A DNA stretch of 41,331 nucleotides. Source: SAR202 cluster bacterium bin22. GTDB taxonomy: Bacteria; Chloroflexota; Dehalococcoidia; Lucifugimonadales; UBA3495. A program made the translations under genes and the position numbers. The stretch covers positions 1 through 41,331 of the forward strand of contig MPMM01000025.1 in NCBI GenBank assembly GCA_002238505.1, written 5' to 3'. This document shows, piece by piece, positions 6,162-23,722 of the stretch (positions are counted from its first letter, which is position 1; every line of letters starts with the position of its first letter). The notes under the pieces are model-generated. The model was not told the origin of the DNA. It did not search any database and saw only the letters and a list, made by a program, of their open reading frames with translations.

Positions 6162-6237
6162 GGGCCCGTAGCTCAGTTGGAAGAGCAGCCGGCTTTTAAC
6201 CGGCAGGCCGCTGGTTCGATCCCAGCCGGGCCCACCA
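6162..6237 (+). tRNA. tRNA-Lys (anticodon TTT), CCA encoded
   Basis: The sequence folds as a full cloverleaf. The acceptor stem is GGGCCCG/CGGGCCC, the D arm contains GCTC AGTTGGAAG AGC, and the anticodon stem GCCGG/CCGGC carries the loop CTTTTAA (anticodon TTT). The T arm is GCTGG TTCGATC CCAGC, with discriminator A and encoded CCA at 6235-6237. A tyrosine integrase fragment begins 130 bp downstream, and tRNA genes are common integration targets. I did not find a second copy of the tRNA 3' end in the window. Confidence 0.95.
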
Positions 6238-8713: not shown

Positions 8714-9703
8714 TTATCTCTTCCCGTGGTAGTACCTGGCCACAGCGCTCCGGCCCGAGCCTGACCCTCGGGTGCACCACGCCGTCATTTTCGAGCCCTT
8801 CCACCGGCCTGCGGTCATGAGGGCGGGTAGTTCCACACCGCTCTTGACCAAGTCCTGGGCCATGCCCACGCGGCCGCTGTGGCCGGTGTACCCTTCGCCC
8901 AGGCCTGCGGCCTGGGCCGCGGCCGTGACCCGCTTCCCGATGTTGCGGGTGGTCATGCCAAAGACGGAACTTTTCAGGTCCAGCAACTCCGGCGCGGGCC
9001 TGATGGCCTGCAGGGCCTGGGCGGCTTCCCGCCCGATGTAGAGTACCACTCCCTCGGCTTCCTGGTCCGTCTTGGACCGGCGTAGGGTTATCAGCGCGGC
9101 GCCGTCGTCCCGGAACTCAACGTTGCCCCAGGTGAGCGCCGCAGCTTCCGATCTGCGCAGCAACCCGTCCCTGAGGGTGGCCAGTAGGGCCAGGTCCACC
9201 CGGGCCCGCCAGGAGGCGCGGTCCGCCGACTCCAGGCCCTTGCCACGGCCGCCGAAGGGGCGCTTGATGCCGGCGGTGGCCTTCACCGCGGCCAGGGCTT
9301 CGGCGGTGAGCGGGCGCGCCTGCTTCTGAGGTTTCCCGTGGGCCCGGGCGATGCCCTTCATGATCTGGCGCACCGGCTCGTTATCGGTGGGATCGGGGTG
9401 GCCAGCGGCCTTGTGGAGCCGGACGGTGGCCACCGAGAGGCGGCGCTCCTCGGCCAGGTGGGCCAAGTAGGCTGCAACCAGGGGCGGAGAGGCCGGGAGG
9501 GACAGGGCGCCCCGGGCCTGGGCCCAGGATTCGAAGCTCCTCCAAGCGGAGTTGTACATGGCTCGGGTGTTGTCGGAGACGCTGGAGTCCAGGGACCTGC
9601 GCAGTCGGGCCAGGTCGGCGCCGGTGAGACCGGCTGCGGGCACTGGCGAGGTGGCACTGGACTCGCCTTGGGGAACTGGCAGTAAGGGGTTTTGTGTGGC
9701 CAT
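8714..9703 (-). CDS. Cre-like tyrosine recombinase with the nucleophile replaced by Cys
   Basis: A 329-residue open frame. The core-binding part is about residues 28-125 and the catalytic part about 130-329. Seen catalytic residues are Arg in LLRRSEAAAL (183/184), Lys in SKTDQ (211), H275-x-x-R278 in GHSGRVGMAQDL, and W301. In Cre the nucleophile Tyr is nine residues after the Trp; here position 310 is Cys (AWCTRG), where sister copies read ARYTER. The alignment in that stretch has equal length, so this is substitution, not a frameshift. An 8-residue in-frame deletion (ALAAIHKA) also distinguishes it from the copy at 34878. It is probably inactive despite the open frame. ARYY near the C-terminus is unlikely to be the nucleophile because of its spacing. 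Its 5' side abuts the HNH gene by 28 bp. Confidence 0.85.
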   Translation of the reverse strand: MATQNPLLPVPQGESSATSPVPAAGLTGADLARLRRSLDSSVSDNTRAMYNSAWRSFESWAQARGALSLPASPPLVAAYLAHLAEERRLSVATVRLHKAAGHPDPTDNEPVRQIMKGIARAHGKPQKQARPLTAEALAAVKATAGIKRPFGGRGKGLESADRASWRARVDLALLATLRDGLLRRSEAAALTWGNVEFRDDGAALITLRRSKTDQEAEGVVLYIGREAAQALQAIRPAPELLDLKSSVFGMTTRNIGKRVTAAAQAAGLGEGYTGHSGRVGMAQDLVKSGVELPALMTAGRWKGSKMTAWCTRGSGSGRSAVARYYHGKR

Positions 9704-9731
9704 TCTGTTCCTCTTTCTGGCTCAGCTTTGG

Positions 9732-10445
9732 TTAAGGGTTATCTTCTTCGTCTCGGGAAGCCTCCTGAGCGTACATGTTTTCTACGTTTTCGAGCCAGTC
9801 GTCCCTCTCCTTTGCCCATTTCGCATACTCGCCGTTGTCACACTTTCCAACGTGGGGGCATAGGTCGGGCGTCAGGCAACCTGACTCTTTCCAGCTCCTT
9901 CCTTTGATGGAAAGACCTGTCTGCTTGCAGACTATGTCTGGACGGGCGTTCTGTTTCCTCTCGAGAGCTGCCCGCCATTCCTGTTCTGCTTGCTGAAACT
10001 CATCCCAGGTCCGTTTCCCCTTCAGGGTGTTGCAGGCCCGGCAGAGCAGGTGCAGGTTCTCCAGGGTGGCCGGCCCTTCGGGGTCTTTGTGGTCTATGCT
10101 CGCGTCCCTGCCTTGGACTCTCTTGTTGCAGCTCTGGCAACGGCCGTCGTCACGGTCAATGATCTGGGGTCGGAGTTTTTGCATTGCGTAGGACCTTCGG
10201 CTTTTGGCCCGCTGTTCGGCCCGCAATGCTTCCAGCCCGGGATGTCCCGGCGGATACAGCGCGACGTACTGGAAGGTTTCATTCTCCAGCGCCCGGGTCG
10301 CTGAGGCTAAACTCATTCCCGAGCTCTGCGTCAACCACTCGATGGCGAAGGCTGTATCCTCCGTATCCATCTGAACCTGGCGTGCCTCGATGACCTGGGC
10401 GACAAGCTCGGGCTGGTCCTGGAATCTTTGGGGTATTTGCGCCAT
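9732..10445 (-). CDS. HNH endonuclease domain protein
   Basis: A 237-residue protein. The HNH nuclease core is CQSCNKRVQGRDASIDHKDP followed by NLHLLCRACNTLKGKR: two CxxC zinc knuckles around the D-H catalytic pair and the N-L-x-L-L-C strand. The N-terminal half is helical with no known fold, and the C-terminal tail has another set of cysteines (DIVCKQTG, GCLTPDLCPHVGKC), perhaps a second metal site. The ATG at 10445 is preferred over an in-frame GTG at 10460 because that GTG overlaps the GTGAGG ribosome site. It lies between the Cre-like integrase and a lox-like site, the slot occupied by a different nuclease gene in the copy at 35-37 kb. Confidence 0.85.
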   Translation of the reverse strand: MAQIPQRFQDQPELVAQVIEARQVQMDTEDTAFAIEWLTQSSGMSLASATRALENETFQYVALYPPGHPGLEALRAEQRAKSRRSYAMQKLRPQIIDRDDGRCQSCNKRVQGRDASIDHKDPEGPATLENLHLLCRACNTLKGKRTWDEFQQAEQEWRAALERKQNARPDIVCKQTGLSIKGRSWKESGCLTPDLCPHVGKCDNGEYAKWAKERDDWLENVENMYAQEASRDEEDNP

Positions 10446-10457
10446 TTTGGGAAACCT

Positions 10458-10491
10458 CACGTGTTCCTATAAGTCCATATAGGAACTCGTG
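10458..10491. other. lox/FRT-like site: 14-bp inverted arms, 6-bp spacer
   Basis: CACGTGTTCCTATA and TATAGGAACTCGTG are inverted copies matching at 13 of 14 positions, separated by AGTCCA. Total length is 34 bp, the size of a tyrosine-recombinase core site, and the arms resemble FRT arms (GTTCCTAT...ATAGGAAC). It lies upstream of the HNH gene that precedes the Cre-like integrase. A related 36-bp site occurs at 36889 in the same relative place. A promoter operator for the HNH gene is the alternative. Confidence 0.55.
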
Positions 10492-10645
10492 TACAGGACC
10501 TGGCAAGGGGCAGGTGTCAGTCAGAAAACTGGTGATAATAGCATGGAGGTCCGGCCTGTTTTATGAAGCCGTACACGGCGAGTGGGACACGTCAAGAATA
10601 TGTAGGAAAGAACGGGTGTTTCGTAAGGCCATCTACTTCGTACAC

Positions 10646-10797
10646 CTAGTATTACAACGACGCTTCCTCAATTCGGTCAGTTTTTGACCGGAAATCGCTT
10701 CGCGGAAGTCAAGGCCAGAAAGCTGTCAAGCGCGTGGGCAGGTTGCTATGAAGGGTACTCAAGATCCCTTCCTTGCGATCCGTCGTTGTAATACTAG
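10646..10797. repeat. 152-bp element with 17-bp perfect inverted ends, left of the retron unit
   Basis: It begins with CTAGTATTACAACGACG (10646-10662) and ends with the exact inverse at 10781-10797. The interior has hairpins CGGTCA/TGACCG and GAAGGG/CCCTTC. A related element of 153 bp with identical ends is at 13881-14033; their interiors share only patches near the ends (CAATT...TTTGACCG on the left, CTCAA..TCCCTT on the right). It could be an attC-like recombination site, a diverged miniature element whose ends create CTAG, or, less likely, part of the retron RNA. Confidence 0.75.
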
Positions 10798-10799
10798 CG

Positions 10800-11002
10800 C
10801 TTGGTCTCCTTTAGACCAAGAATTAAGTCCGTTGACCCTTGAGTTTCTATTCGTTAGTATTCTTGTCCTACGGGGCGATGGATCTCGGCGGCGCTTCGCC
10901 TACCGTGCCCAGTGATGGACCTCAATTGCGGTGCAGGTGGCTCGTGCCTTATGTGCCTAGTCGCACTGCGCCTTCGGTTGGCATTGCCCCGTAGGTCTAA
11001 AG
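10800..11002 (+). ncRNA. candidate retron non-coding RNA (msr-msd) upstream of the reverse transcriptase
   Basis: The 250 bp before the RT gene has no coding frame but strong nested complementarity. CTTTAGACC (10809-10817) pairs with GGTCTAAAG (10994-11002) as an a1/a2-like stem. Directly inside on the 3' side, CCTACGGGGCGATG (10867-10880) pairs with 10982-10995 over about 14 bp as a long msd-like hairpin. That hairpin encloses GCGGTGC/GCACTGC (10928-10934 with 10963-10969) and GGCG-CTT-CGCC at 10890-10900. An alternative local hairpin CTTGGTCT/AGACCAAG (10800-10820) competes with a1. This order (outer stem, spacer msr, long msd hairpin, then RT) matches retrons. I do not see a clear branching AGC motif next to a1, so boundaries are approximate. 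Confidence 0.6.
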
Positions 11003-11047
11003 TTACGATTTAATAGCAGCAAGTTTTAGGATCGGCTGAATGTAATT

Positions 11048-12121
11048 ATGGCCAACGTTTCAAATCCTCTCCGTCCAGACTGGGTTAAAACGTCACAGGA
11101 AGAACTTCGGAAGACTTATCGCGAACTTTCCTCCACACATGACCTAGCGTCGTTTTGGGGGATTACTCCATCTCAACTTACTTATTATGCATTCCACGTC
11201 GACAAGAGAGTCGTGTATAGGACATATAAGATACCTCGGCGGTACGGCCAAGAAAGGCAAATTGATGCCCCGGTTCCGGCCTTAAAATATATTCAACGCC
11301 TTATCCACGAGTCACTGAGTAGGGTATACGGCCCACACCCTGGTGTACATGGATTTCGTATTGAGCGCTCAATTCTTACCAACGCGCAGCAGCACTTGGA
11401 CAGCCGGTTTGTCTTGAATGTAGATTTAGCAGACTTCTTTCAGAGTATCACTCGCCAGAGAATCTATGGAAGGTTGGTTGCAGCTCCTTACTCGTTGGAC
11501 AAGAAGGTGGCCAATATGATCGCCTCTCTGGCCACAAATGCTTATGCTCGGTTACCCCAAGGGAGTCCTTGTTCACCCATTCTCGCCAACATCGTGGCCG
11601 CGCAACTGGATACTGACTTGGCCAATCTCTGTGGAGCGCTTGGTTGCTGGTACTCCAGGTACGCGGACGACATCTCCATCTCGACCTCGCGGATGGAGAT
11701 GCCCCCGGCAATTGCCAGATATCCAAGTGCTCGTGGAACGGGCCAAGTAGTTATTGGTGATAGTCTTGTGACTGCCATCGAAAAACAAGGTTTCCGAATC
11801 AACGAACGAAAGAGTCGGTTGCAAAGTAAATGGACTCGCCAAATGTGCACCGGCTTAGTAGTAAACGGCAAAGATGTCAATGTTCCCAGATCGTATGTAC
11901 GTCAGCTGCGATCTCTAATAGACCACTGGCGCAAGAAGGGCTGGCAAGATGCAGTCCAAGTACTACACGCAGGAGAGAACCGCCCTCTCCTTGATAGTAG
12001 AGAAGCGCTTACTAATCACGTGATGGGCAGAATTGCTTATTTGCGAATGGTTCGTGGGCAGGACGATAAAATTGCACGAAGCCTGCGTCAAGTCGTTGCA
12101 GGGCTTCCCCAAGACCATTAG
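11048..12121 (+). CDS. retron-type reverse transcriptase
   Basis: A 357-residue group II/retron-like RT that would copy part of the adjacent RNA into a DNA-RNA hybrid. Motifs in order: the retron-specific NAxxH at 112-116 (NAQQH), motif A NVDLADFF at 124-131, motif B LPQGSPCSP at 169-177, the catalytic YADD at 205-208, GFRINERKS at 249-256, and CTGLVVN at 267-273 in the place of the retron VTG motif. Two small departures are Cys for Thr in QGSPTSP and Cys for Val in VTG. There is no maturase or endonuclease domain, so this is not a group II intron protein. The start lacks a strong ribosome site. The FRG gene follows after 40 bp on the same strand. The nucleotide style (lower GC) differs from the integrase genes on either side, consistent with separate acquisition. 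Confidence 0.93.
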   Translation: MANVSNPLRPDWVKTSQEELRKTYRELSSTHDLASFWGITPSQLTYYAFHVDKRVVYRTYKIPRRYGQERQIDAPVPALKYIQRLIHESLSRVYGPHPGVHGFRIERSILTNAQQHLDSRFVLNVDLADFFQSITRQRIYGRLVAAPYSLDKKVANMIASLATNAYARLPQGSPCSPILANIVAAQLDTDLANLCGALGCWYSRYADDISISTSRMEMPPAIARYPSARGTGQVVIGDSLVTAIEKQGFRINERKSRLQSKWTRQMCTGLVVNGKDVNVPRSYVRQLRSLIDHWRKKGWQDAVQVLHAGENRPLLDSREALTNHVMGRIAYLRMVRGQDDKIARSLRQVVAGLPQDH

Positions 12122-12161
12122 ATCAATTGAACTACACCGCTGCTGAACGGTGAGGTAGGCG

Positions 12162-13136
12162 ATGCCCTCAAGGTTGGAGGTAACTCCGAACTACTCAATC
12201 TACACGGCGAGAACTGTGAAGGAATTCCTAGACTACTTGAGCCTTAGTGCTACTCATTGGATGTCAGCCAGGCGTGGCGATCTGGCCTACCGCGGACAAC
12301 CTTCCAGTGTATGGCCACTATTGCCGAAGGCATTTCGCTCGGATCAGATTGTTGGTTATGAACGTGATGCACCATTTGCCAACCCAAGTCGCGTTGTGCC
12401 GCAAGCTAGGGCTGAATTCCGCGCCGTCCACCAGTTCGTGACAGCTGCAGACATAGCAGGCCTTCAGATTACTGAGGCAGGAGGTCGCCTTGTATTGCAG
12501 GAAGAGCCAGAGGAAATTTTCAAGGATCGTAATTGGGCATATGGTTGGCCACAAGAAGAAATAGTGGAGACACTCGCTTTAGCCCAACATCACGGTGTAC
12601 CGACCCGTTTACTTGACTTTACAGAAGACCCACTTATTGCTGCTTATTTTGCAGCAAGTTACGCATGGGACTCACGAAAAGCTAAACGGCTTCCTGGAAA
12701 GGATCGCCAGCATCTAGCTGTCTGGGTGATAGACCTAAGGTTTATTCGAGCCCTCAATGCGATCGGAGGTCGTTACCCAGAACGGATCCGAGAGGTTCGT
12801 GTTCCCAGAGGAAACAATGCTTATCTCCATGCCCAGCTGGGTTTCTTCCTCCTTGATCGTGGTGCCAACGACATGATGGCACGAAGGGGGTCTTTGTCGT
12901 TAGAAACAGTTGCTGCGGACCGAGCTATGTTTTGGCATACTGGAAAGAGGCTCGCTGGTAAGGGTATCGAACGAAATTGGTTCGACGAACTTCCTGTCAG
13001 GCAGATCAGACTTCGTACGTTTCTAACGGGACAACTCCTGAGAGAACTTGAGAGTCGTGGCTTTACGAGAGGAAGTCTAATGCCTAGCTTGGACCGCGTT
13101 GTGGAGTCTCTAGAATTGCAAAGAAGCGTGCCTTAG
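12162..13136 (+). CDS. FRG-domain protein, putative retron effector
   Basis: A 324-residue protein. The FRG domain, named after its Phe-Arg-Gly type motif, is shown by DLAYRGQPSSVWPLLPKAFR (40-59, YRGQ at 43-46) and by HHGVPTRLLDFTEDPLIAAYFAA starting at 144. The latter is the H-x-G-x-P-T-R-L-L-D-x-T-x-x-P-L-x-A-x-x-F-A signature. The remainder is mixed alpha/beta with no second recognised domain or membrane segment. The ribosome site GTGAGG precedes the ATG. It follows the RT by 40 bp with no terminator between, so it is presumably co-transcribed. FRG proteins occur in defence islands but their chemistry is not established. By analogy with other retrons it would be the toxic effector held in check by the RT-msDNA complex; this is inference. 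Confidence 0.85.
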   Translation: MPSRLEVTPNYSIYTARTVKEFLDYLSLSATHWMSARRGDLAYRGQPSSVWPLLPKAFRSDQIVGYERDAPFANPSRVVPQARAEFRAVHQFVTAADIAGLQITEAGGRLVLQEEPEEIFKDRNWAYGWPQEEIVETLALAQHHGVPTRLLDFTEDPLIAAYFAASYAWDSRKAKRLPGKDRQHLAVWVIDLRFIRALNAIGGRYPERIREVRVPRGNNAYLHAQLGFFLLDRGANDMMARRGSLSLETVAADRAMFWHTGKRLAGKGIERNWFDELPVRQIRLRTFLTGQLLRELESRGFTRGSLMPSLDRVVESLELQRSVP

Positions 13137-13416
13137 CCAAGATGCATTTCCGCTGTCCCTCAACCTGCACTTTGCGCAAAATCTAACATCTAACAAGAGC
13201 AACTGCTGCCCTCGCTCCGGCGGGGCGCCACCCATAGCTGGCGTCGGACGACTTTTCACTGCCCGCAGCTGATCCAGATATTCAGAATCTCCCGATCTTC
13301 TGTTTCATCCACTCATAAATTCCCTCGCTCGTGCCGCTTAAAATGCGTGAAGCCCAGAAATAGCCTACGGGTACAACACCTGCTGGCCCCGTCCACACTT
13401 CTTGGAGTACACAGCC

Positions 13417-13884
13417 ATGAATTTCGAGACCATGACCGACACCGAACTTCTCCTCGCCCACTGCAGGATCATCGACCACATACGCCAACGCAACCTCCAC
13501 TCACCGGGAGGCAATCCCATCGCAGGCTATGCCGAACTGCTTGTTTCCGAACGCCTCCGGCTCGAACTTGCCCCAGATGAGAACGTCGGCTTCGACGCCA
13601 GAGACCTCGCCACTGGAGAAACCTATCAAATCAAGCACACAAGGGCTCCCCGAAGAGTCCCACAAACTGGAATGATCAACAATCTCGATGGCAGACCGTT
13701 CGACTTGCTTGTATTCCTGATTCTTAACCAGGACCTCTCCGTGCGTGAAGCTTGGAAGCTTGCATACGACTTTTTCTACCGCAACGCCCGGTACAGCAAG
13801 GCGAACGACGCCCACTACATATGCATCACCCAAGACCTCCGAGCCCAACCTGAGCTCAAAGACATCTCCTACAGGTTCGCCTAG
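13417..13884 (+). CDS. DUF6998-like, restriction-endonuclease-fold-like protein; third gene of the retron unit
   Basis: A 155-residue protein. NPIAGYAELLVSERLRLEL, then GFDARDLATGETYQIKHTR, then LDGRPFDLLVFLIL follow the pattern of a small PD-(D/E)XK-type domain. The conserved Glu lies in the first helix, Asp in GFDA and Q-x-K in YQIK. The middle also resembles proteins I know as DUF6998. The ATG at 13417 has GGAG about 9 nt upstream; an in-frame TTG at 13402 is less likely. The stop codon TAG is bases 2-4 of the right-hand inverted-repeat element, so the reading frame ends exactly at the unit boundary. It is 280 bp downstream of the FRG gene, so it may have its own promoter. Whether it belongs functionally to the retron is uncertain. 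Confidence 0.65.
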   Translation: MNFETMTDTELLLAHCRIIDHIRQRNLHSPGGNPIAGYAELLVSERLRLELAPDENVGFDARDLATGETYQIKHTRAPRRVPQTGMINNLDGRPFDLLVFLILNQDLSVREAWKLAYDFFYRNARYSKANDAHYICITQDLRAQPELKDISYRFA

Positions 13885-14033
13885 TATTACAACGACGCAT
13901 TGCCCAATTAGACATTTGACCGTTCTTGTTCAGCTACGAATCAGCGAGGATGGAAAGAGCGTACCGGCACGGGGCCAGGCTCAATTCCCTTGCGGGAATT
14001 ACCTCGTCAGTTAATCCGTCGTTGTAATACTAG
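13881..14033. repeat. 153-bp element with the same 17-bp inverted ends, right of the retron unit
   Basis: CTAGTATTACAACGACG at 13881-13897 and its inverse at 14017-14033 are identical to the ends of the element at 10646. Inside is a strong hairpin AATTCCC-TTGC-GGGAATT. Length differs from the left element by 1 bp, while the interior is largely diverged. The upstream gene's stop codon lies in its first bases. Directly to the right begins sequence related to the par-repeat and integrase-tail region. Confidence 0.75.
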
Positions 14034-14150: not shown

Positions 14151-14311
14151 GCCTTATGGCTTCTGAATAGTGCAGGGATTTATCTGGCGTTCATCCCTAC
14201 CGCTGGGTTTTTGTGCAGTTGCCAAATGCCCGGTTGGCCTTTAATTTATGAGTTGCCCATGGGCCGAGCAGGGTAGGGGCGGCGTATTACTTGTGTGGGA
14301 GGATCTTCACG

Positions 14312-15307
14312 TTGACTGGAGAGCGAGATGGACTTGCCCTGGGTGTGGATAACTCGGCGGGCGTTTACGCTTTTCTAGAGGCTTCGGCTCCGGCCGATGT
14401 GGCACGGGGCGCAGCGCCCCTCTGCCGAAGTCACGTGGTCACACTTCTGGAGCTGTCATCTTCGTGTTCCGGCCCCCTCAACCTGTCGGGGCGAAATCTG
14501 CACTCGACCGACCTGTCGGGATTAAACCTCCGCGAGGTTGACCTGCGCGGGGCCGACCTGGGCCATGCCGACCTGCGCAACGCGGACCTCTTTGGAGCTG
14601 ACCTGTCGGGGGCCGACCTTTTCCGGGCGGATCTCAGGGGGGCCTTCCTGGTCCGGTGCAACCTCGACGGGGCTTTTCTCCTGGCGGTCCGGCTTGACGA
14701 GCACACGGACCTGGGCGATGTAGAGTGGGGACGGCGTTACCAATCGGAGTGGGAGCGCCTGGGTATGCTGGACAACGCCCGTGCTCTTTACCGACAGCTT
14801 TTTGTCTGGCACAGGACCCGGGGCTATGGAGATCTGGCTGGGGAGTTTCTTTATCGGGACTGGGTCTGCCGTACCCGGCAGATGGGGGAGGCGGTGGCCC
14901 AGGGATGGAACTGGCGACGGCCCTGGCGGGTGGGACTCCTGGGCAGTCTCAGTTGGTGGCGTTCCCTGGGGAAGTTCCTGGTGATGGCTGGGTTCGAGGC
15001 CGCCTTTGGTTATGGGGAGCGTCCCTTCCGGATCTGCGTGTTCGCGGCCGCGGTGGTTGTGCTCTTCGCCCTGGCCTTTTTTGTCCTTCCGGGCGGCTTT
15101 GAGGGCGCCTGGACCTTGAGGAACGTCTCCAGCCATCTTCTTGATTGCTTTTACTTCTCCCTCGTGTCCTTCACGACCTTGGGCTACGGCGAATGGGTGG
15201 ACCCACCGGGCTTGGCGGCTGGAGACCTGGGAGCTGTCGAGTCCTTTATAGGGCTGTTCGTGACGGCCATGTTCCTAGTGACCTTCACCCGTCGGTGGAC
15301 CCGCTGA
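14312..15307 (+). CDS. pentapeptide-repeat protein with a two-helix potassium-channel domain
   Basis: A 331-residue protein. After a short N-terminus there is a run of A(D/N)LxG/x pentapeptide units (LNLSG, DLSGLNLREVDLRGADL, HADLRNADLFGADLSGADL), predicting a right-handed beta helix. A linker follows, then a hydrophobic helix (FRICVFAAAVVVLFALAFFVL), a pore region with the potassium selectivity filter SFTTLGYGE, and a final helix (FIGLFVTAMFLVTF). This is the Ion_trans_2-type pore fused to pentapeptide repeats. The pore suggests K+ or other cation conduction across the inner membrane. The TTG at 14312 is chosen for GGGAGG at 14297-14302; an upstream TTG at 14291 overlaps that site. Confidence 0.8.
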   Translation: MTGERDGLALGVDNSAGVYAFLEASAPADVARGAAPLCRSHVVTLLELSSSCSGPLNLSGRNLHSTDLSGLNLREVDLRGADLGHADLRNADLFGADLSGADLFRADLRGAFLVRCNLDGAFLLAVRLDEHTDLGDVEWGRRYQSEWERLGMLDNARALYRQLFVWHRTRGYGDLAGEFLYRDWVCRTRQMGEAVAQGWNWRRPWRVGLLGSLSWWRSLGKFLVMAGFEAAFGYGERPFRICVFAAAVVVLFALAFFVLPGGFEGAWTLRNVSSHLLDCFYFSLVSFTTLGYGEWVDPPGLAAGDLGAVESFIGLFVTAMFLVTFTRRWTR

Positions 15308-22011: not shown

Positions 22012-22836
22012 ATGACAACAGCAACAAGACCCAAGCGTTCCTTGGCCGGGATCGAATTGATCAGGCTTCTCTCACGGGAGGGGGATCGGATCTTCACTAC
22101 AGATCGGGCGAGAGAACTGGCTCCCCAGGCAGGTCTCCGTGATCCCTACGTGTGCGAATCCCTGCACCATCTGCAGCGCAATAACTGGATCGTTCCTCTC
22201 CGTCGCGGACTCTACGCGCTGTCTTCACCTGTTCCCGGTGTTGCAGACGTCCACGAGTTTGAGGTGGCCATGGCACTGCTTCAGCCCGCAGCCATTTCCC
22301 ATTGGTCGGCGCTGAACTACCACGGACTGACAGAGCAAGTCCCACGAAAGGTGTTCGTGCTCACGACTACGGATGCATCCGTCCCCCGGAAGCGGGCAGG
22401 TGAAGGCACAAGCCCAGGGGGCGGATACCCTGTGAACGGAACCGTCTTTCAGTTCGTTCAGGTCCAGCCGGACCGTTATTTCGGCACCGAAACGGTTTGG
22501 ATGGGGGACGCCCGAGTATCAATCACCGACCTGGAGCGAACCCTCCTGGACTGTGTGGCGATGCCGCAACATTGTGGCGGCTTTGGCGAGGTGATCCACG
22601 CCTTCGGGGCAGCCATACCCCGGGTCGACATGGAGCGACTTTCGGGATATGCCCTGCGGTTGGGTCCGACTATCGCCAAGCGAACTGGCTGGATCCTGGA
22701 GCACCATAACTGCGAGGCACCTCAACTGGAGGTATTGGCCGCAATTCCCATGAAGGGGACTGGCAAGCTTGACCCGACCGGTCCCAGAAGGGGCGTGTAC
22801 AACAAGCGTTGGTTGCTTCAGGAAAACCTGCCATGA
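22012..22836 (+). CDS. abiEi: AbiEi-type antitoxin
   Basis: A 274-residue AbiEi-family protein, the antitoxin and autorepressor of a type IV toxin-antitoxin and abortive-infection pair. The N-terminal winged helix spans about residues 11-66 (IELIRLLSREGDRIFTTDRA, then LHHLQRNNWIVPLRRGLYAL). The body has AISHWSALNYHGLTEQVP and ISDLERTLLDC-like ITDLERTLLDCVAMPQ, both characteristic of the family. The C-terminus, ending WLLQENLP, is of normal length. It sits 10 bp before the toxin gene. Confidence 0.88.
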   Translation: MTTATRPKRSLAGIELIRLLSREGDRIFTTDRARELAPQAGLRDPYVCESLHHLQRNNWIVPLRRGLYALSSPVPGVADVHEFEVAMALLQPAAISHWSALNYHGLTEQVPRKVFVLTTTDASVPRKRAGEGTSPGGGYPVNGTVFQFVQVQPDRYFGTETVWMGDARVSITDLERTLLDCVAMPQHCGGFGEVIHAFGAAIPRVDMERLSGYALRLGPTIAKRTGWILEHHNCEAPQLEVLAAIPMKGTGKLDPTGPRRGVYNKRWLLQENLP

Positions 22837-22846
22837 ATAATACGCC

Positions 22847-23722
22847 ATGAGGCCGCTGCGTAACCGCCTGCGAGAAGCCCGGCGGCAGCTTGGTCTACAA
22901 TCCTACGTTGTCGAGCGGGACTATATCCTGTCCTGGGTGCTTGCTGGCATCGGCGCTGTGCCGGAGCTGAAAGATACTCTGGTGTTCAAGGGCGGAACTG
23001 CGCTGAAGAAGTGTTACTTCGGGGATTACCGTTTCTCTGAGGATCTGGACTTTTCAGCTCTGGAAGGCGTGCCTACCGGCGAGGCCATGGAAGAACTCAT
23101 GGCCCTGGTATGTGAGGCAGCACGAAAAATGCTGTATGAGTATGCTGATGTTGAGTTTGTCTGTCAGCGCCATTTGGAGCATAACCCGCATCCGGGTGGT
23201 CAGGAAGCCTTCGAAATTCATGCCCGGTTGCCCTGGCATCCGCGGCCAGATATTCCAGTCAAAGTGGAAATTACCGTGGATGAGCTTATCGCCTGGCCGG
23301 TCGAACGGCGCTCGATCATTCACGGCTACGGGGAGCCGCTGGACGTAGAATTGCAGATCTATTCGCCGACCGAGGTTGTTGCCGAGAAGTTGAGGGCCAT
23401 ACGGCAACAACTGAAGTTGCTGGAACAGAGAGGATGGACCCGGAACCGCGCACGCGACTACTACGACCTCTGGCGCGTCCTGGGAACTTTCGGGGACAGT
23501 GTGGACCGGGTTAACTTTATTGGTCGTTTCCACGATAAGTGCAAACTGAGAAACGTCGACTTCGAAGGTCCGGATGATTTCTTCGACTCCCGGGTCATAG
23601 ATGACGTGAAACAGGGGTGGGAATCTTCTCTTGCACCCTTGGTTACTGATCTCCCGGACTTTGATACGGTGATGGGCGAATTGCAGCCGCAGGTGGAGCT
23701 CTTACTTGAACCGGCACCGTAA
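22847..23722 (+). CDS. abiEii: AbiEii-type nucleotidyltransferase toxin
   Basis: A 291-residue nucleotidyltransferase of the AbiEii/AbiGii family, a toxin thought to act by nucleotide transfer to RNA or protein targets. The NTase core is FKGGTALKKCYFGDYRFSED, with GG at 49-50, then D66-x-D68 in SEDLDFS as metal ligands. EVVAEKLRAIRQQ and ARDYYDLWRVL are the other family blocks. The pair with AbiEi is complete and unbroken. A lox-like half-site begins one base after its stop codon. Confidence 0.9.
   Translation: MRPLRNRLREARRQLGLQSYVVERDYILSWVLAGIGAVPELKDTLVFKGGTALKKCYFGDYRFSEDLDFSALEGVPTGEAMEELMALVCEAARKMLYEYADVEFVCQRHLEHNPHPGGQEAFEIHARLPWHPRPDIPVKVEITVDELIAWPVERRSIIHGYGEPLDVELQIYSPTEVVAEKLRAIRQQLKLLEQRGWTRNRARDYYDLWRVLGTFGDSVDRVNFIGRFHDKCKLRNVDFEGPDDFFDSRVIDDVKQGWESSLAPLVTDLPDFDTVMGELQPQVELLLEPAP

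Follow-up and report, generated by a model that had tools for sequence, protein, structure and literature searches.

A predicted retron operon in a SAR202 bacterium joins a conserved structured RNA and a reverse transcriptase to a free-standing Frg-domain protein

The window, by which we mean the whole stretch of 41,331 nucleotides analysed here, contains at positions 10832–13136 what we read, with a probability of about 75%, as a retron operon made up of a promoter, a non-coding RNA (ncRNA), a reverse transcriptase (RT) and an Frg-domain effector. The original prediction had placed a structured RNA candidate within 10800–11047, and a retron-type RNA is indeed present there, directly upstream of a retron RT, but its start and the roles of its stems differ from that proposal: the RNA would most probably serve the retron as its template, with another a1/a2 stem and another start point. 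Its anatomy is standard for a retron apart from unusual details, the missing AGC motif and the presence of two msr hairpins, and the unusual element of the locus is the conserved partnership of the RT with the Frg protein.

RT matches were found in 9 of 99 genomes related to that of the window and, at E 1e-40, in 9 of 250 genomes of the same order. Four further RT loci are 58–66% identical to the window's (L004, L005, L006, which is the same place as L016, and L012, a second RT copy in the window's own genome), and the Frg gene is present at all four; the window's genome has just two members of the FRG family, one next to each RT copy. Searching with a profile built from the five Frg proteins revealed two more RT neighbours, at L013 and L015, which are 33% and 37% identical to the Frg protein of the window. 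In all, 90 distinct RT loci were examined, with flanks of about 1.5–3.5 kb, and at 7 of them, in six genomes of one order, an Frg gene adjoins the RT as a conserved neighbour. The five close RTs form one group (100/100) in a tree of the 90 RTs, and L013 and L015 are not placed with them. The RT of L005 (1501–2574) has an internal stop codon; the RNA and the Frg gene of this locus look intact.

One conserved block is common to the upstream regions of the five close loci and corresponds to window 10865–10997 (plus strand, as are all features of the operon; folding z −3.30), the predicted ncRNA (msr-msd). Its base is a 14-bp stem, 10867–10880 with 10982–10995, which is 93% Watson-Crick, is fully paired if G-U is allowed, and contains the longest perfect core (10 bp) of the interval 10800–11047. 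This stem had been proposed as that of the msd, with 10867–10880 as its 5′ arm, but it is instead the a1/a2 stem, with the RNA enclosed between its arms: the ncRNA lies beside the RT and its ends pair over a length within the 8–30 nt of retron a1/a2 stems. Of the three stems proposed earlier it is the only one clearly above chance, and it is conserved with compensatory changes in the four homologous loci. The covariation suggested as a check is thus present for this stem, whereas the other two stems are absent from the homologues.

These other two stems were a 9-bp pair (10809–10817 with 10994–11002), put forward as a1/a2, and an 8-bp hairpin (10800–10820 on the plus strand, pairing 10800–10807 with 10813–10820) that would compete with a1 and so time folding and priming, the 14-bp stem being the msd. 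Both proposed stems, 9-bp and 14-bp, exist in the sequence, as does the hairpin, which is also predicted in the fold of 10800–11047. However, perfect inverted repeats of at least 9 bp arose in 17 of 300 dinucleotide shuffles of this interval and 8-bp hairpins whose loop did not exceed 8 in 5 of 300, so neither the 9-bp pair nor the hairpin is more than mildly unusual. In the four close homologues, the 80 nt upstream contained no complement longer than 4–6 nt to the sequence surrounding the 3′ end of the stem, and no upstream hairpin of at least 7 bp was found in these four loci. The 9-bp pair overlaps the conserved stem by two bases only (10994–10995), and in the fold of the whole interval the hairpin and the 14-bp basal stem coexist whereas the 9-bp pair is not formed. 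A promoter match, described below, moreover lies between the proposed a1 and the RNA, with its −10 box ending 6 nt before the conserved stem. Being unconserved and upstream of this promoter, the proposed a1 strand is probably outside the RNA and the folding switch is unsupported; we consider that arrangement highly improbable.

The structure of the predicted retron RNA was scored across the five sequences as the basal stem, two hairpins and a small 3′ hairpin. With these five sequences, a good but not a deep sample, 93.5% of cells were paired, and 7 pairs were changed on both sides compared to 2.7 in shuffles, with 1 of 500 shuffles reaching as many as 7. When the partners were slid against each other, pairing dropped to 45% or less. 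The basal stem had 94.7% of its cells paired; two pairs of msr hairpin 1 (10886–10905) were changed on both sides, and msr hairpin 2 (10907–10920) had 88% of its cells paired and no pair changed on both sides. A further hairpin at 10929–10968, likely the core of the msd template, was variable, with a pairwise identity of 0.34 compared to 0.65–0.86 elsewhere and 0.74–0.86 in the arms and msr hairpins. Such a pattern is as expected if a conserved msr stands beside an msd that is free to change. In L004 the variable hairpin is weak and is missing from the centroid structure.

A covariance model of the RNA gave strong matches in 247 genomes only upstream of this RT (5 copies in 4 genomes), along with two weak extra matches at 21.8 and 21.5 bits (in genomes G009 and G215), and in 95 sources the strong matches were confined to the same five RT-linked copies. 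An Rfam search returned no family for the RNA, the sole match being a tRNA at 6162. At the distant RT/Frg loci L013 and L015 the RNAs escape the model; they have another sequence and the same plan, namely a basal stem of 13–15 bp enclosing 119–131 nt just 5′ of the RT. Across 91 RT rows, many of them close relatives, the best upstream stem reached a score of at least 26, by a scoring chosen with the sequences in view, and exceeded each of its six shuffles in 66 rows, where about 13 would be expected to exceed all six by chance; the basal stem of L012 does not beat its shuffles.

These data also bear on the notion that the RNA is nothing more than a structured 5′ leader with a regulatory role for the RT/Frg operon. 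The RNA is directly upstream of the RT and in the same direction, and no terminator-like site was found on the plus strand from 10500 to 13400, as a leader would have it. Yet it would be unusual for a leader to enclose a variable hairpin between conserved arms, and most of the related RTs are likewise preceded by a long basal stem that contains a hairpin; we therefore hold a mere leader to be improbable and retain the retron template RNA.

The promoter match is sigma-70-like (TTGACC-17-TAGTAT, 10832–10860, 9 of 12 matches) and occupies the same position relative to the stem in the homologues. The promoter scan found 4 sites in the scanned region compared to 2.3 expected. When the best promoter lying 4–10 nt from the stem was taken at each of seven loci, the summed score was 65 and the maximum in 2000 shuffles was 52, in a window chosen after inspection of the sequences and with many loci being close relatives. 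Individually, 6 of the 7 loci were significant at 0.0205 or below and L013 was not significant alone (0.18). Since the match lies 6 nt upstream of the stem and the distance between promoter and stem is fixed over the seven loci, transcription most likely starts at about 10867, that is, at the basal stem itself.

The gene that follows (11048–12121) encodes a retron-type RT of 357 aa. Its best matches in PADLOC are retron RTs of types XII, XI and I-C (3.5e-104), and among chains of solved structure the retron Ec67 protein comes closest (4e-41); the NCBIfam models Retron_TIR and Ec67 match it below their cut-offs, which are set for fused proteins. NAxxH (N112-A-x-x-H116) and YADD are invariant in 4 of 4 aligned RT copies, and NAXXH in region X, a mark of the retron clade of RTs, is found in 14 of 16 validated retron RTs (PMC6868368). 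Counting against a retron, CTG replaces VTG at residues 267–269 in 4 of 4 copies, and PMC6868368 gives the VTG triplet at the start of region Y for 14 of 16 validated retron RTs. Two validated retrons are described there as deviating from VTG by one letter as well, and the triplet is thus usual and not required.

The original prediction had remarked that a canonical branching guanosine motif is not obvious, and this observation holds, as AGC is missing. By position, conservation and analogy, the best candidate for the priming (branching) guanosine is G10881, which sits at the inner end of a1 ahead of the msr hairpins and is invariant in the five close RNAs. It is followed by a single-stranded linker of 4 nt, AUCU (10882–10885), and then by hairpin 1. 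In Eco2, as described in PMC12405507, the branched rG15 is likewise followed by rA16–rU19 and a stem-loop from rG20, so that G10881 would be the counterpart of rG15 and the linkers are of equal length. The context of G10881, UGGA/UUGA instead of the usual AGC, speaks against a retron, although the AGC context also varies among the validated retrons (PMC6868368). A guanosine, 4 nt and a hairpin after the basal stem occur at 34 of 64 related RT loci compared to 9.2 expected, the pattern having been set after inspection and many of the 64 loci being close relatives; the window locus does not count among the 34, since the pattern required a T before the guanosine and the window has a G there.

Akin to the predicted operon, Eco2 (Ec67, a type I-C RT-Toprim), whose RT is the closest with a solved structure, has an a1/a2 stem at whose inner end a G is followed by a 4-nt linker and a hairpin (PMC12405507), and its msd is of similar size (67 nt compared to about 60 predicted here). 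Differences are (i) the effector, a Toprim fused to the RT in Eco2 and a separate Frg protein in the window; (ii) the msr, with one hairpin in Eco2 and two here; and (iii) the context of the guanosine, CAGA in Eco2, as given in PMC6868368, compared to UGGA/UUGA. This likeness weighs on another explanation, in which the RNA serves as template or cofactor for a defence-associated (DRT) RT that makes DNA without a 2′-5′ branch. Other RT/ncRNA defence systems are reported to work in this way (PMC12483538 and PMC11100668), and the lack of the AGC priming motif would fit. The RT, however, groups with retron RTs and is matched only weakly by the Drt2 and Drt3a models, and the order of G, 4 nt and hairpin beside a1 is that of Eco2, such that a DRT appears unlikely and a retron RT remains our preferred assignment.

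The Frg gene (12162–13136) starts 40 nt after the stop codon of the RT and encodes a protein of 324 aa that is the predicted effector. It contains the Frg-clade domain (PF08867, 1.6e-16; 61.4 bits compared to a curated cut-off of 25 for Pfam FRG) and also matches the PADLOC candidate PDC-S15, and no retron effector family in PADLOC matches it; PADLOC files PDC-S15 as a separate defence candidate. In PMC9503650, Frg is placed in the ADP-ribosyltransferase (ART) superfamily as a possible NADase in prokaryotic immunity and is grouped with the RES-type ARTs, immune enzymes whose substrate is free NAD+. A structure model of the protein was middling (mean pLDDT 64.6); Foldseek with this model returned nothing at E 0.001 or better and a sequence search of the PDB nothing at E 1. 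A second structure comparison gave 36 rows, of which 20, including the top eight, were chains that we labelled as ARTs on the basis of their titles; many of these were redundant, and the best Z was 5.1, below the caution level of the tool. This comparison agrees with the published ART placement and would be insufficient alone to establish an ART fold.

As Frg belongs to the ART superfamily and is a predicted NADase, the system is likely a retron with an NAD-consuming effector. Another option is that the locus is a retron whose Frg protein is no NADase, acting as a modifier of nucleic acids or proteins (KptA-like or ADP-ribosylating) or as a regulator. KptA and macromolecule-modifying ARTs are indeed among the top structural rows, but the grouping of Frg with RES-type ARTs that use free NAD+ (PMC9503650) points the other way, and we view such a role as conceivable though doubtful next to NAD+ consumption.

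We propose the following course of events, modelled on other retrons and on the published prediction for Frg. The promoter at 10832–10860 would start the RNA at about 10867, and the RNA would fold into the long basal stem, the two short msr hairpins and the variable msd hairpin. The RT would prime cDNA from the 2′-OH of G10881, and synthesis would begin where a2 meets the interior of the RNA and run back across the variable hairpin, yielding a branched RNA-DNA (msDNA). As in other retrons, the complex of RT and msDNA may hold the Frg protein inactive until a phage disturbs the msDNA; the Frg protein released in this way, as an enzyme of the ART superfamily, would then consume NAD+ and stop the infected cell.

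A more specific reading, to which we give slightly better than even odds as a whole, is that the operon represents a separate retron type, established in Dehalococcoidia, with a free-standing Frg-clade ART as an effector that depletes NAD+, and that it is derived from, or convergent with, the clade with RT-fused TIR, protease and Toprim domains, its fixed msr and swapped msd hairpin reflecting a sensor whose evolution keeps pace with changing phage triggers. Types XI (RT-protease) and XII (RT-TIR) gave the best RT profile matches and have related loci in the same RT set, which includes L061 and L047 (trypsin-like) and L058 (TIR). In these types the effector is fused to the RT, unlike the free-standing Frg protein of the window, and our RNA model detects no RNA homology with them. 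TIR effectors also act on NAD+. Frg and retron were not found together among the matches listed in the literature that we searched, the founding classification and the experimental census being outside that search. If the reading is true, an effector of the ART superfamily joins the proteins kept in check by retrons, and the Frg domain, mainly known as a predicted immune effector, gains a concrete and testable control partner. The conserved recognition part beside a fast-changing msd hairpin would also offer a way to ask what the msd senses, and a candidate priming guanosine would be assigned in a group without AGC, the motif by which retron RNAs are found.

Beyond the order, an RT profile matched 2 of 393 genomes of the class at E 1e-60, the window's own included, and Frg was found at E 1e-30 in 350 genomes of the phylum only in the window's own. 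Searches of genome contigs for the RT confirmed no relatives with the single protein; with an alignment they gave 80 loci, the best 80 of 561. In viral contigs no RT relatives were confirmed with an alignment and no Frg relatives with the single protein; with an alignment, Frg gave 8 loci in viral contigs, and the RT profile found no RT beside them. Plasmids held 32 records of Frg, and phages and plasmids 47 and 599 records of the RT, all under 60% identity. A Pfam search with nine C-terminal extensions of related RTs gave matches for three. In L008 and L014, of the same order, the C-terminal extension of the RT resembles a restriction-endonuclease (Mrr-type) domain by eye. The cyanobacterial relatives L019, L021, L024–L030, L034, L035, L038 and L041 are free-standing RTs of about 350–400 aa, and at many of their loci the basal stem encloses a conserved hairpin with a GATCCTGC loop.

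The interval 10646–10797, named earlier as the place where the RNA might lie instead, is ruled out as retron RNA, being a MITE-like element of 152 bp that is not part of the retron. It has IS701-type terminal inverted repeats of 17 bp and CTAG at both outer ends, lacks a transposase, and has a second copy in the genome at 79% identity; elements of about 1.46 kb in relatives share its ends and carry an IS701-family transposase (NF033540, 360 bits). Beyond the far end of the operon there is another MITE-like element whose ends are the same (13881–14033), so that the RT/Frg operon is situated between two IS701-type MITEs, separated by about 3.1 kb, and might be moved or reshuffled along with such elements. 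One such MITE end is also seen about 2.6 kb upstream of the RNA of the second copy (G000:C37, 18630–18647). Further out in the window, a tRNA-Lys (6162–6237) is followed by two minus-strand genes (8714–10460), for a phage-integrase-family recombinase and an HNH endonuclease, which together form a possible border of a mobile island. An AbiEi/AbiEii-like toxin-antitoxin pair at 22012–23719 gives the window a second candidate defence system, and close to the retron, at 14291–15307, a protein with pentapeptide repeats and an ion-channel domain is encoded.
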